Positions 4,946-62,956 of a stretch of 64,000 nt of DNA are shown piece by piece. The notes beneath the pieces are model-generated. The model searched no databases. It saw nothing but the letters and a program-made list of their open reading frames with translations, and was not told the DNA's origin. Source of the DNA: Micromonospora sp. WMMD1102. GTDB taxonomy: Bacteria; Actinomycetota; Actinomycetes; Mycobacteriales; Micromonosporaceae. The translations under genes and the position numbers were made by a program. The first letter of the stretch is position 1. Each line of letters starts with the position of its first letter. The stretch lies in the NCBI RefSeq assembly GCF_029626265.1, contig NZ_JARUBN010000001.1, forward strand, positions 5,335,001 to 5,399,000. The letters run 5' to 3'.

Positions 4946-5240
4946 CTGGTTGCACCCCTGTCGTGTGTCGCGGCACGTCCGAGGCGGAACGCGCCGTGAA
5001 GGCCCCGGGGGATGTGGGCGAGCGGGAACTCGCGGTGCCACCACACCTTCACCACCGGCGGTGTCACGGCCGGCGGCCTCGTTCGCGGTCCCTGACGCGG
5101 GCCGGTCGGCGGGTTCTACTGGGCGTGGGTACGCCGTTCTTCCCGCAGCTCGGGAGGGTCTTCCCAGCCCGGTCGGAGATCACCTTCCAGCAGCTCGGTG
5201 ACTCTCTGGACTCCGGTGGTCGGGCTGGTACTCGGCTCCG
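4946..5240 (-). promoter_or_regulatory. T-box riboswitch leader, Asp specifier (GAC)
   Basis: Read on the minus strand, the leader has the elements of T-box RNAs in the right order. An AGTA motif (complement of 5229-5232) is followed by CCAGCCCG (5228-5221), which pairs perfectly with CGGGCTGG (5171-5164). Next come GAA and GAC (5163-5158), exactly the specifier-loop layout, with GAC as an Asp codon. Within the stem lie an AGAGAG segment (near 5205) and an apical GTCACC/GGTGAT helix. Downstream is TGGCACCGCG (5040-5031), the T-box sequence that binds the tRNA acceptor end. The remaining 85 nt include C-rich stretches that could mask the AGGGGTG ribosome site, so translational control is likely. 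The specifier matches the amino acid of the downstream synthetase. Confidence 0.85.
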
Positions 5241-5257
5241 TCGACGCTCTGCCCCGG

Positions 5258-5288
5258 AGCCTAGCCGGCCCCGCCGCCACGCCGACAA
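5258..5288 (-). promoter_or_regulatory. candidate promoter of the T-box/aspS transcript
   Basis: On the minus strand, TTGTCG (complement of 5283-5288) and TAGGCT (complement of 5258-5263) are separated by 19 bp. Transcription would start about 20 nt upstream of the T-box AGTA motif. Confidence 0.45.
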
Positions 5289-5409
5289 CAGATTTTCGGG
5301 TACGCCGTGGCCGGGGGCAGGTCGGACGGCGAGCGACGGCGTGAGTGGTATCACCTGGTCCGGCACGTGAGTCCGGTCGCTGCCGGTCGATCGGTCGAAG
5401 CCTGGCGCG

Positions 5410-5415
5410 TAGGCT
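5410..5415 (+). promoter_or_regulatory. leaderless promoter -10 of lipA (TAGGCT)
   Basis: TAGGCT ends 7 nt before GTG at 5423, the spacing expected for transcription starting on the start codon. The same arrangement is seen at lipB and several other genes in this window. Confidence 0.55.
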
Positions 5416-5422
5416 CGGATTC

Positions 5423-6529
5423 GTGACCATCGAGCACTCCGCGCCATCCTCCGCCGCCGAAGCCGGAGGGGTGGGCGTCGTGACCGCACCGGAGATCCGT
5501 CCCGGCCATCCCGTCGCGCCGGAGGGGCGCCGGCTGCTGCGGGTCGAGGCCCGCAACGCGGCGACGCCGATCGAGCGCAAGCCGCCGTGGATCAAGGTCA
5601 AGGCGAAGATGGGCCCCGAGTACACCCAGCTCCGTGGGCTGGTCTCCCGGGAGGGGCTGCACACCGTCTGCCAGGAGGCCGGCTGCCCCAACATCTACGA
5701 GTGCTGGGAAGACCGGGAGGCGACCTTCCTGATCGGCGGTGACCAGTGCACCCGCCGGTGCGACTTCTGCCAGATCGACACCGGCAAACCGGCCGACTTC
5801 GACGCCGACGAGCCGCGCCGGGTCGCCGAGTCCGTGGTCGCGATGGGTCTGCGGTACGCCACCGTCACCGGGGTGGCCCGGGACGACCTGCCGGACGGCG
5901 GTGCCTGGCTCTACGCCGAGACGGTCCGGCAGATCCACGCGCTGACCCGCCGGGACGGCGTCGGTGGCGCCGGGACTGCCGACGGGGTCGACCCGACCGC
6001 CGACGGCACCCTGGACGGGCTGTCGCACTGCGGGGTCGAGCTGCTGATCCCGGACTTCACCGGCAACCCGGACCAGCTCGCCGAGGTCTTCGGTGCCCGC
6101 CCGGAGGTGCTGGCGCACAACGTCGAGACGGTACCCCGAATCTTCAAGCGGATCCGGCCCGCGTTCCGCTACGAGCGCTCGCTCGACGTGCTCACCCAGG
6201 CCCGCGCCGCCGGGCTGGTGACGAAGTCCAACCTGATCCTCGGGCTCGGCGAGGAGCGTGCCGAGATCTCCCAGGCGCTGCGCGACCTGCACGCGGCCGG
6301 CTGCGAGCTGGTGACCATCACGCAGTACCTGCGCCCGACGCCCCGGCACCACCCGGTCGAGCGGTGGGTGCGCCCGGAGGAGTTCGTGGAGCTGCGCGAG
6401 GAGGCCGAGGAGATCGGCTTCGCCGGGGTGCTGAGCGGGCCGCTGGTGCGCTCGTCCTACCGGGCCGGCCGCCTCTACCGGCAGGCCGTCGAGGCGCGCG
6501 AACTGCCGGCCGCCACCGCCGCCCGGTAG
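5423..6529 (+). CDS. lipA: lipoyl synthase LipA
   Basis: Radical SAM enzyme that inserts two sulfurs into protein-bound octanoyl chains made by LipB. The auxiliary cluster cysteines (CxxxxCxxxxxC) are at about residues 83-94, the radical SAM motif CTRRCDFC at about 109-116, and the C-terminal RSSY motif near 350. At 368 residues it is longer than typical, partly from a Gly/Asp-rich insert near residues 175-195. GTG at 5423 is leaderless behind TAGGCT. GTG at 5480, preceded by GGAGGGG, is an equally reasonable start and would remove 19 residues. It is divergent from the T-box/aspS transcript. Confidence 0.95.
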
Positions 6530-62635: not shown

Positions 62636-62745
62636 CGGCGTCGCCTGCCGGTGTGAGTCCGGTCCGGGTAGTCGCCAGGGAGCCCGGTAGCAGGCTGGCG
62701 GCGTCGAGGGAAACGCTCGGCGTCGAAGCGAAGCGTCAAAGGCCT
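62636..62745 (+). other. possible group II intron RNA fragment
   Basis: The segment contains short paired motifs such as GCCGGTGTGAGTCCGG and GGCTGGCGGCG and the GAAGCGAAGC stretch, which I associate with the first domain of bacterial group II introns. It interrupts a transposase remnant on the other strand. Identification is from memory of the family and is tentative. Confidence 0.35.
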
Positions 62746-62956
62746 TCGTTCTGCCCACAGACGTGCTTCTTGCCGGCGTACAGGCCGTCGTAGTGCTCAC
62801 GTTCACCGACCGGGGCGACGAACCGTCGGCCAGGACGCCGTCACGCTGGGCACGTTCGAGCTGGTCGTCGACCTCGGGTCGGGTCACCCAGCGCAGGATC
62901 GGGCCCAGGATCTCGTGGTAGCGGGTGATCGTGGCCGCCTCTGACCACCCCCACAA
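62746..62956 (-). pseudogene. IS4/IS5-type transposase remnant, frameshifted
   Basis: From 62956 downward the minus strand reads WSEAATITRYHEILG and VTRPEVDDQLERAQ, ending VLADG near 62822. In a shifted frame it continues FVAPVGEREHYDGLYAG and KKHVCGQN to about 62746. DG.FV...G....YDG..SGKKH is the layout around the first catalytic Asp of DDE transposases. Both ends are missing and the frame is broken. Confidence 0.5.

Follow-up and report, generated by a model that had tools for sequence, protein, structure and literature searches.

An Asp-specific T-box leader, probably acting on translation, in front of a second, archaeal-type aspartyl-tRNA synthetase gene in Micromonospora

We report that the gene of a second, archaeal-type aspartyl-tRNA synthetase (aspS2, encoding AspRS2) in Micromonospora sp. 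WMMD1102 is preceded by a leader which is very likely a full-length, tRNA-Asp-specific T-box controlling translation of the synthetase. The leader is situated in a stretch of 64,000 nucleotides (contig NZ_JARUBN010000001.1, positions 5,335,001 to 5,399,000), referred to here as the window. T-box identity, the Asp specifier, its fit to the host tRNA, the lack of a terminator-like site and the conservation in relatives are all read from the sequence.

The covariance model RF00230 matches the minus-strand leader from end to end (243 nt, 5253-5011, model positions 1-219 of 219; 50.8 bits, E 3.1e-10 in the search of the stretch). When the whole genome (8.9 Mb) was searched, the same leader gave E 1.2e-9 and was one of only two matches at E <=10; the other is the ileS leader L007 with 13.2 bits. 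The latter has a very short Stem I, the specifier AUC, a Stem II with AGTAGAA and the sequence GGTGGTACCGCG. It is thus of the known actinobacterial ileS type and serves as an internal control; the first 473 residues of the gene behind it match TIGR00392 ileS (483.5 bits, E 1e-144, for this piece only). An Rfam scan of the window at the gathering cut-off called no T-box. For RF00230 this cut-off is 93 bits, a curation threshold that marks no biological feature, and the 50.8 bits of the aspS2 leader fall short of it, probably as a result of the GC-rich sequence. Because the ileS T-box reaches only 13.2 bits, and because none of 200 genomes drawn from the order is above the cut-off versus 108 with a match at E <=0.001, the cut-off fails to tell true T-boxes from others in these genomes. 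On the minus strand the motifs follow one another as AGTA, CCAGCCCG, AGAGAG, CGGGCTGG, GAA, GAC and TGGCACCGCG, then the GTG start of the AspRS (Table 1). The sequence-only reading had proposed a T-box with its motifs in this order in front of an AspRS gene, and both the motif order and the model match bear it out. The AGAGAG motif belongs to the distal Stem I module, to which the literature assigns the binding of the tRNA elbow. Upstream, a TAnnnT hexamer precedes the aligned leader start by 12-15 nt in each of the 29 leaders, compared with 4.6% in letter shuffles, and from the TAGGCT in the window we predict a transcription start near 5250. No -35 element was identified at the aspS2 leader, and a sigma-70 consensus scan gave nothing.

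Table 1. Features of the aspS2 leader and gene in the window (positions of the window)
Feature	Position	Strand	Evidence
Candidate -10 element TAGGCT	5258..5263	-	TAnnnT conserved upstream of leaders
T-box leader (RF00230 1-219)	5011..5253	-	model match and covariation
AGTA, specifier loop, S-turn 5' side	5229..5232	-	invariant in 29/29 aligned leaders
Upper Stem I	5164..5228	-	CCAGCCCG 5228-5221 / CGGGCTGG 5171-5164 at base; CGGAG/CTCCG; TCACC/GGTGA; double-sided changes in 12/17 pairs (helices 3, 4, 5)
AGAGAG, distal Stem I module	5202..5207	-	first five bases invariant in 29/29; last G >=90%
GAA, just before specifier	5163-5161	-	GAAGAC invariant in 29/29 aligned leaders
Specifier GAC (Asp)	5158..5160	-	in register in 48/54 distinct actinobacterial leaders; register from ileS AUC and clostridial AAC leaders
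Stem II with GAA/AGTA internal loop (GCGGG...CCCGC; GGCG...CGCC)	5109..5146	-	sequence and alignment
CGTCA, candidate F-box of Stem IIA/B region	5093..5097	-	sequence and RF00230 alignment
Stem III (CCGCCGG/CCGGTGG)	5052..5076	-	helix 7: double-sided changes in 5/6 pairs
TGGCACCGCG, T-box sequence	5040-5031	-	sequence
T-box bulge UGGC, complement of tRNA-Asp GCCA end	5037..5040	-	TGGC in 50/54, TGGT in 4/54 distinct leaders (pattern admitted C or T only)
Antisequestrator	5011..5047	-	A1 GGTGTGG 5047-5041 / CCACATC 5017-5011; A2 GCGAG 5033-5029 / CTCGC 5022-5018; helices 8, 9: 100% of cells paired, double changes in 4/12 pairs
Anti-Shine-Dalgarno CATCCC, overlaps A1 3' strand	5009..5014	-	pairs with GGGGTG 4958-4953, probabilities 0.79-0.91 in free fold
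Shine-Dalgarno GGGGTG of aspS2, just 5' of GTG start	4953..4958	-	GGGG unpaired probability 0.00 free, 0.47 with antisequestrator forced
aspS2, archaeal-type (predicted non-discriminating) AspRS, 430 aa	3653..4945	-	GTG start 4945-4943; NF003483, PDB 1n9w

Comparison of the leaders confirmed the fold. We prepared 32 leaders after dropping those with long Stem II inserts, those lacking a long Stem I and a number of near-copies; the 29 actinobacterial ones form the alignment, from which the non-actinobacterial L057, L061 and L062 were left out. RNAalifold, run on the 29 leaders without guidance, recovered Stem I, Stem III and the A1/A2 antisequestrator. In the aligned structure 97.1% of the cells are paired, versus 36-48% when the partners are slid by 1-3 columns, and double-sided changes were seen in 22 of the 46 pairs; many rows are close Micromonospora relatives, so that the cells do not count as independent events. 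The covariation score of 0.334 compares with 0.154 in shuffles (as high in 0 of 500) and with at most 0.074 for slid partners. Together with the model match, this covariation identifies the aspS2 leader as a T-box. Stem II is missing or shorter in the Kribbella, Asanoa and Nonomuraea leaders, and RNAalifold gave no prediction for it over the whole set of 29. CGTCA of the Stem IIA/B region is present in the window, whereas Kribbella and Asanoa leaders lack this region. Several Micromonospora-type leaders (L016/L037, L026, L028/L049, L040, L053 and L063) have a palindromic repeat of the AAGGAAGGGCCCCCTGTTAACGCC... type, some 60 nt long, in the region of the Stem II loop.

The protein behind the leader consists of an OB-fold and a class II core. 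It matches the NCBIfam model NF003483, aspartate--tRNA(Asn) ligase, with 502.9 bits (cut-off 353), remains with 323.2 bits short of the cut-off of TIGR00458 aspS_nondisc (368.4), and has AspRS2 1n9w as its best PDB match (E 4e-108), in line with the archaeal-type AspRS2 that the sequence-only reading had assigned. The best solved relative is thus Thermus thermophilus AspRS2 (1n9w, 3kfu), likewise an archaeal-type AspRS next to a bacterial-type one; this likeness concerns the proteins only. A bacterial-type enzyme, AspRS1, is encoded elsewhere in the genome of the window, and no RF00230 match was found at its gene aspS1 in that genome at E <=10. AspRS1 was likewise kept in all 35 genomes of the order that have AspRS2, although in G033, a genome of 74% completeness, it is represented by fragments that fall short of the cut-off. 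We had considered AspRS2 as a replacement of AspRS1 and rejected this since AspRS1 is there in 35 of 35. The host genome contains no AsnRS above the TIGR00457 cut-off and does contain GatB, so that Asn-tRNA is presumably made by amidation. This gene set fits a charging of tRNA-Asn by AspRS2, but AspRS1 alone could do so as well. Divergent from the aspS2 leader lies lipA, the lipoyl synthase gene (5345-6529, plus strand). Far from this locus, the window also holds a match to Group II intron D1-D4-4 (RF02003, 62.7 bits) at 62645-62793 on the plus strand.

At which level does the leader act? Between 4900 and 5500 we found no terminator-like site and no T-run. The 3' strand of A1 runs into CACAUCCCC in the window, where its partner is the Shine-Dalgarno sequence (SD) GGGGUG; in Micromonospora it runs into CACACCUCC, the partner being GGAGGU, and in the Nonomuraea-like family the strand reads GCACUCC and the partner GGAGU. 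Within the genus, L196 has CACUCC/GGAGUG versus CAUCCC/GGGGUG in the window, so that, from L196 to the window, one U-A pair is replaced by C-G through a double change and one C-G pair by U-G. In the predicted free fold of the window the GGGG of the SD is paired and becomes partly accessible upon forcing A1 (Table 1). Of 14 leaders picked by hand, five of which are genus-mates or the window itself, 10 gained more than 0.1 in SD access when A1 was forced, and the other four changed little (L055 from 0.72 to 0.79; no gain in L030, L033 and L062). With the accessibility taken over 11-nt segments in 16 leaders, three gained more than 0.1, L029, L030 and L064 gained nothing, and L051 and L061 lost access. 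When anti-SD and SD were swapped between families, 2324, 780 and 1421 of 20000 permutations (12, 7 and 17 leaders, respectively) did at least as well as the true pairing. This test is weak, and most of the complementarity is thus that of any CCUCC with any GGAGG. A further contact is predicted at the start codon itself: on the minus strand, the T-box bases GUGGCACC (5041-5034) and the start region GGUGCCAC (4946-4939) are complementary without mismatch over 8 bases, and the two are paired in the free fold. By eye, GUGCCAC at the start also occurs in the genus-mates L196, L198 and L199, but not in L197.

The main competing explanation is that the same T-box acts on transcription, by intrinsic or Rho-dependent termination, and not on ribosome access. 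The majority of annotated T-boxes are transcriptional, according to the part of PMC7583486 used here. Besides, the leader of the Chloroflexia locus L057 carries a terminator-like hairpin, CCCCCUCG...CGAGGGGGUUUU, with UUUU after the T-box and little anti-SD match, so that the ancestor may have been transcriptional and the mode of control may have changed along the lineage; several leaders also show, by eye, a UCCC/GGGGA pairing at the place of the terminator. Against these points stand the missing terminator-like site and T-run in the window and an SD that is complementary to the 3' strand of A1, with a compensatory change inside the genus. We consider control of transcription unlikely, and translational control of aspS2 is the likely mode. 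The proposal of the sequence-only reading, a translational switch whose C-rich 3' end masks the ribosome site, is thereby partly upheld: the lack of a terminator-like site, the predicted SD sequestration and the change in L196 speak for it, but the swap test adds weak support and the 11-nt accessibilities little.

We next turn to the relatives. AspRS2 is present in 35 of the 200 genomes drawn from the order, that of the window included, and the T-box core GGTGG[CT]ACCGCG stands upstream of aspS2 in all 35 (30 loci and five further ones that were read). At E <=0.001, RF00230 finds the leader beside aspS2 in 32 of these genomes and misses it in G073, G101 and G108, which belong to one genus and have ultrashort leaders. 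Among the best 30 matches in the order, 19 lie before an ileS relative, 10 before aspS2 and one before neither. The GC-rich, actinobacterial-looking T-box L208 (G171:C12), near the end of its stretch, is followed by neither ileS nor aspS2. Across the phylum 153 of 296 genomes gave an RF00230 match, whatever the gene behind it. Among at least 80 loci from named genomes 23 are actinobacterial, and these have the core in 20 cases and a variant core in L053 and L054; the stretch of L060 ends before the gene start. In an AspRS2 tree of 55 proteins, on which the specifier labels were set by hand and 19 rows carry none, the 17 actinobacterial rows group together (96/86), beside Chloroflexi, Sulfobacillus and two Bacillota MAGs. 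Of these five neighbours three have GAC in register, Sulfobacillus L064 has GAU (by eye) and L058 lacks the core. The Lachnospiraceae, with AAC, sit on another branch, and four Firmicutes of a third branch have GAC. More than one T-box core in a row is found in the Firmicutes aspS2 leaders L075, L094 and L106, and apparently also in L078, whose second core would be a variant. Most Micromonosporaceae loci have lipA next to aspS2, and lipB is often near (both in 28 loci); the Nonomuraea-like family, Kribbella and others have neither beside aspS2. Leader and aspS2 therefore stay together in different surroundings.

The length of Stem I varies among these leaders. In L046, L056/L238, L059, L237 and L239 it has shrunk to a small hairpin whose loop holds GAC; letter shuffles of these stretches gave GAC in a loop 103-149 times in 1000, and AUC takes the same place in the ileS leader. 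L046, L056 and L059 stand apart in the AspRS2 tree, which suggests that the long Stem I was shortened repeatedly. L040, L053 and L063 have no Stem I left, and L053 additionally has a core mutated to GGTGGCATCGCG. Decay thus does occur among aspS2 leaders, and the leader of the window could likewise be a decayed relic without regulatory function. All its elements other than the Stem IIA/B pseudoknot are intact, however, and the helices covary across genera, which makes such a relic highly improbable.

The specifier was assigned by its register. From 56 actinobacterial loci with the core we obtained 54 distinct leaders. GAAGAC is in register in 48 of them; among the other six, three (L046, L056 and L059) have an ultrashort Stem I whose loop contains GAC, and three are without Stem I. 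The specifier is followed by 6 nt and GAG, be it AUC in the ileS leader of the same genome, GAC in the aspS2 leaders or AAC in the clostridial ones, and this constant spacing fixes the register. AAC occupies the place in 22 of the 48 loci L069-L116, mostly Lachnospiraceae, in a search for GAC and AAC only. We located the host tRNAs with RF00005 and ARAGORN. The host tRNA-Asp has the anticodon GTC and the 3' end GCCA, which fits the UGGC of the T-box, just as tRNA-Ile with A73 fits the UGGU of the ileS T-box. Because tRNA-Asn shares G73, the UGGC bulge cannot tell Asp from Asn, and the discrimination falls to the specifier. Among the tRNA genes of the genome there is a dense array of 14 (L157, G000:C1:4922745-4925832) with a matching set on contig C2; the array may be part of a mobile element.

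Could the leader read something other than GAC? One may think of ACC (Thr), which shares two bases with GAC, or of a leader that responds above all to tRNA-Asn, which a non-discriminating AspRS takes as its second substrate. The latter is hinted at by the name of NF003483, aspartate--tRNA(Asn) ligase, and by the AAC (Asn) that clostridial relatives have at the same place. The fixed 6-nt spacing to GAG in ileS, aspS2 and clostridial leaders argues against both; moreover, the host tRNA-Thr(GGU) has U73 and would want UGGA, on which grounds we rejected the out-of-register ACC, and the anticodon GUU cannot read GAC by standard pairing. We regard a different specifier as extremely improbable. The Asp specifier, already named in the sequence-only reading, is supported by the register, the GAG spacing and G73 of tRNA-Asp, and in the homologous leaders GAC was not found to lie outside the specifier loop. 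As for a chance assembly of GC-rich motifs, stems are cheap in such sequence, but the genome-wide E-value of 1.2e-9, the covariation and the core in 35 of the 35 genomes of the order with the gene already refute it and leave it a negligible probability.

In the literature consulted here, the T-boxes of Actinomycetia are those of ileS, acting on translation, and of a his operon. The portion of Seliverstov 2005 (PMC1262725) considered here places them at ileS only and proposes SD sequestration. In the excerpt of Wels 2008 (PMC2494555) that we cite, ileS is again the example for Actinobacteria; 32 T-boxes, whose genes are not all named there, are counted in 12 of 19 actinobacterial genomes, and T-box control of one aspS copy in C. 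acetobutylicum is mentioned. Passages from PMC9413887 name a T-box of the Corynebacterium glutamicum his operon, while those from PMC7583486 state that a few translational T-boxes retain a long Stem I and cite structures of the Mycobacterium and Nocardia ileS T-boxes. According to the section of the TBDB paper (PMC7778990) used here, Actinobacteria were scanned with the class II model. In the literature we searched, which did not extend to the TBDB tables, no report of an aspS2 T-box in Actinomycetia was found; aspS2 loci may already be in those tables. What appears to be new is thus that aspS2 of Actinomycetia carries a T-box specific for Asp, and that this one gene has it both with a long and with an ultrashort Stem I. 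Asn T-boxes on the clostridial aspS2 of C. acetobutylicum are reportedly the subject of work by Saad from 2012 and 2013.

The aspS2 leader resembles the translational ileS T-boxes of the same phylum in that it has no terminator, an antisequestrator strand that is predicted here to pair with the SD, and a Stem II with S-turn. It differs from the ileS T-box of its own genome, with the very short Stem I, by the full-length Stem I with AGAGAG, by the Asp specifier and by the gene, a second AspRS; a few aspS2 leaders (L046, L056, L059, L237 and L239) do share the ultrashort Stem I of the ileS type. With the clostridial aspS2 Asn T-boxes it has in common the homologous archaeal-type AspRS and the same 6-nt spacing from specifier to GAG, but those have AAC, mostly UGGU and a separate AspRS2 branch, compared with GAC and UGGC here. 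Like the canonical class I T-box (RF00230) it shows a Stem I with AGTA/GAA specifier loop, Stem III, an antiterminator-like fold and the T-box sequence; unlike it, it has no terminator and scores below the Rfam cut-off.

From these data we infer the following switch. Transcription would start close to 5250, and Stem I would offer the specifier GAC to the anticodon GUC. When bound in the uncharged state, tRNA-Asp would pair through its GCCA end with the bulge UGGC and hold A1 (GGUGUGG/CCACAUC); this would leave the SD GGGGUG free, and AspRS2 would be made. With charged tRNA-Asp, A1 would open, its 3' strand CAUCCC would pair with the SD, and the gene would be shut. A tRNA-Asp T-box on the extra gene, AspRS1 in 35 of 35 genomes and no T-box at the host aspS1 suggest an on-demand standby enzyme: AspRS2 would be produced when the housekeeping, bacterial-type AspRS fails to keep tRNA-Asp charged.

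One may speculate further, and we put forward only tentatively, as a possible but rather doubtful combination, that three things hold together: a standby AspRS2, a double lock in the genus of the window, and a Stem I that shrank more than once with the Asp specifier kept. AspRS2 would then be retained beside AspRS1 in several actinomycete families and be turned on only when tRNA-Asp is uncharged, for example because AspRS1 is poisoned by an inhibitor of the aspartyl-adenylate type. The second lock would be the pairing of GUGGCACC with GGUGCCAC, whose GUG-CCA would mimic the GCCA end of the tRNA, so that the start codon would be a rival of the tRNA for the same T-box bases. The long Stem I would have become ultrashort more than once along the lineage, with the Asp specifier unchanged.

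In summary, the leader extends the ileS and his T-boxes of Actinomycetia by aspartate, by a second AspRS and by a full-length Stem I combined with probable control of translation. It also illustrates that the Rfam cut-off hides GC-rich T-boxes, given that 0 of 200 genomes of the order are over it. One synthetase family has an Asp specifier in one branch and an Asn specifier in another, and the long and ultrashort Stem I on an orthologous gene form a natural series in which to ask what purpose the long Stem I serves. For these bacteria, the T-box predicts undercharging of tRNA-Asp as the condition under which the extra archaeal-type AspRS would be made, and this opens the role of the enzyme to testing.
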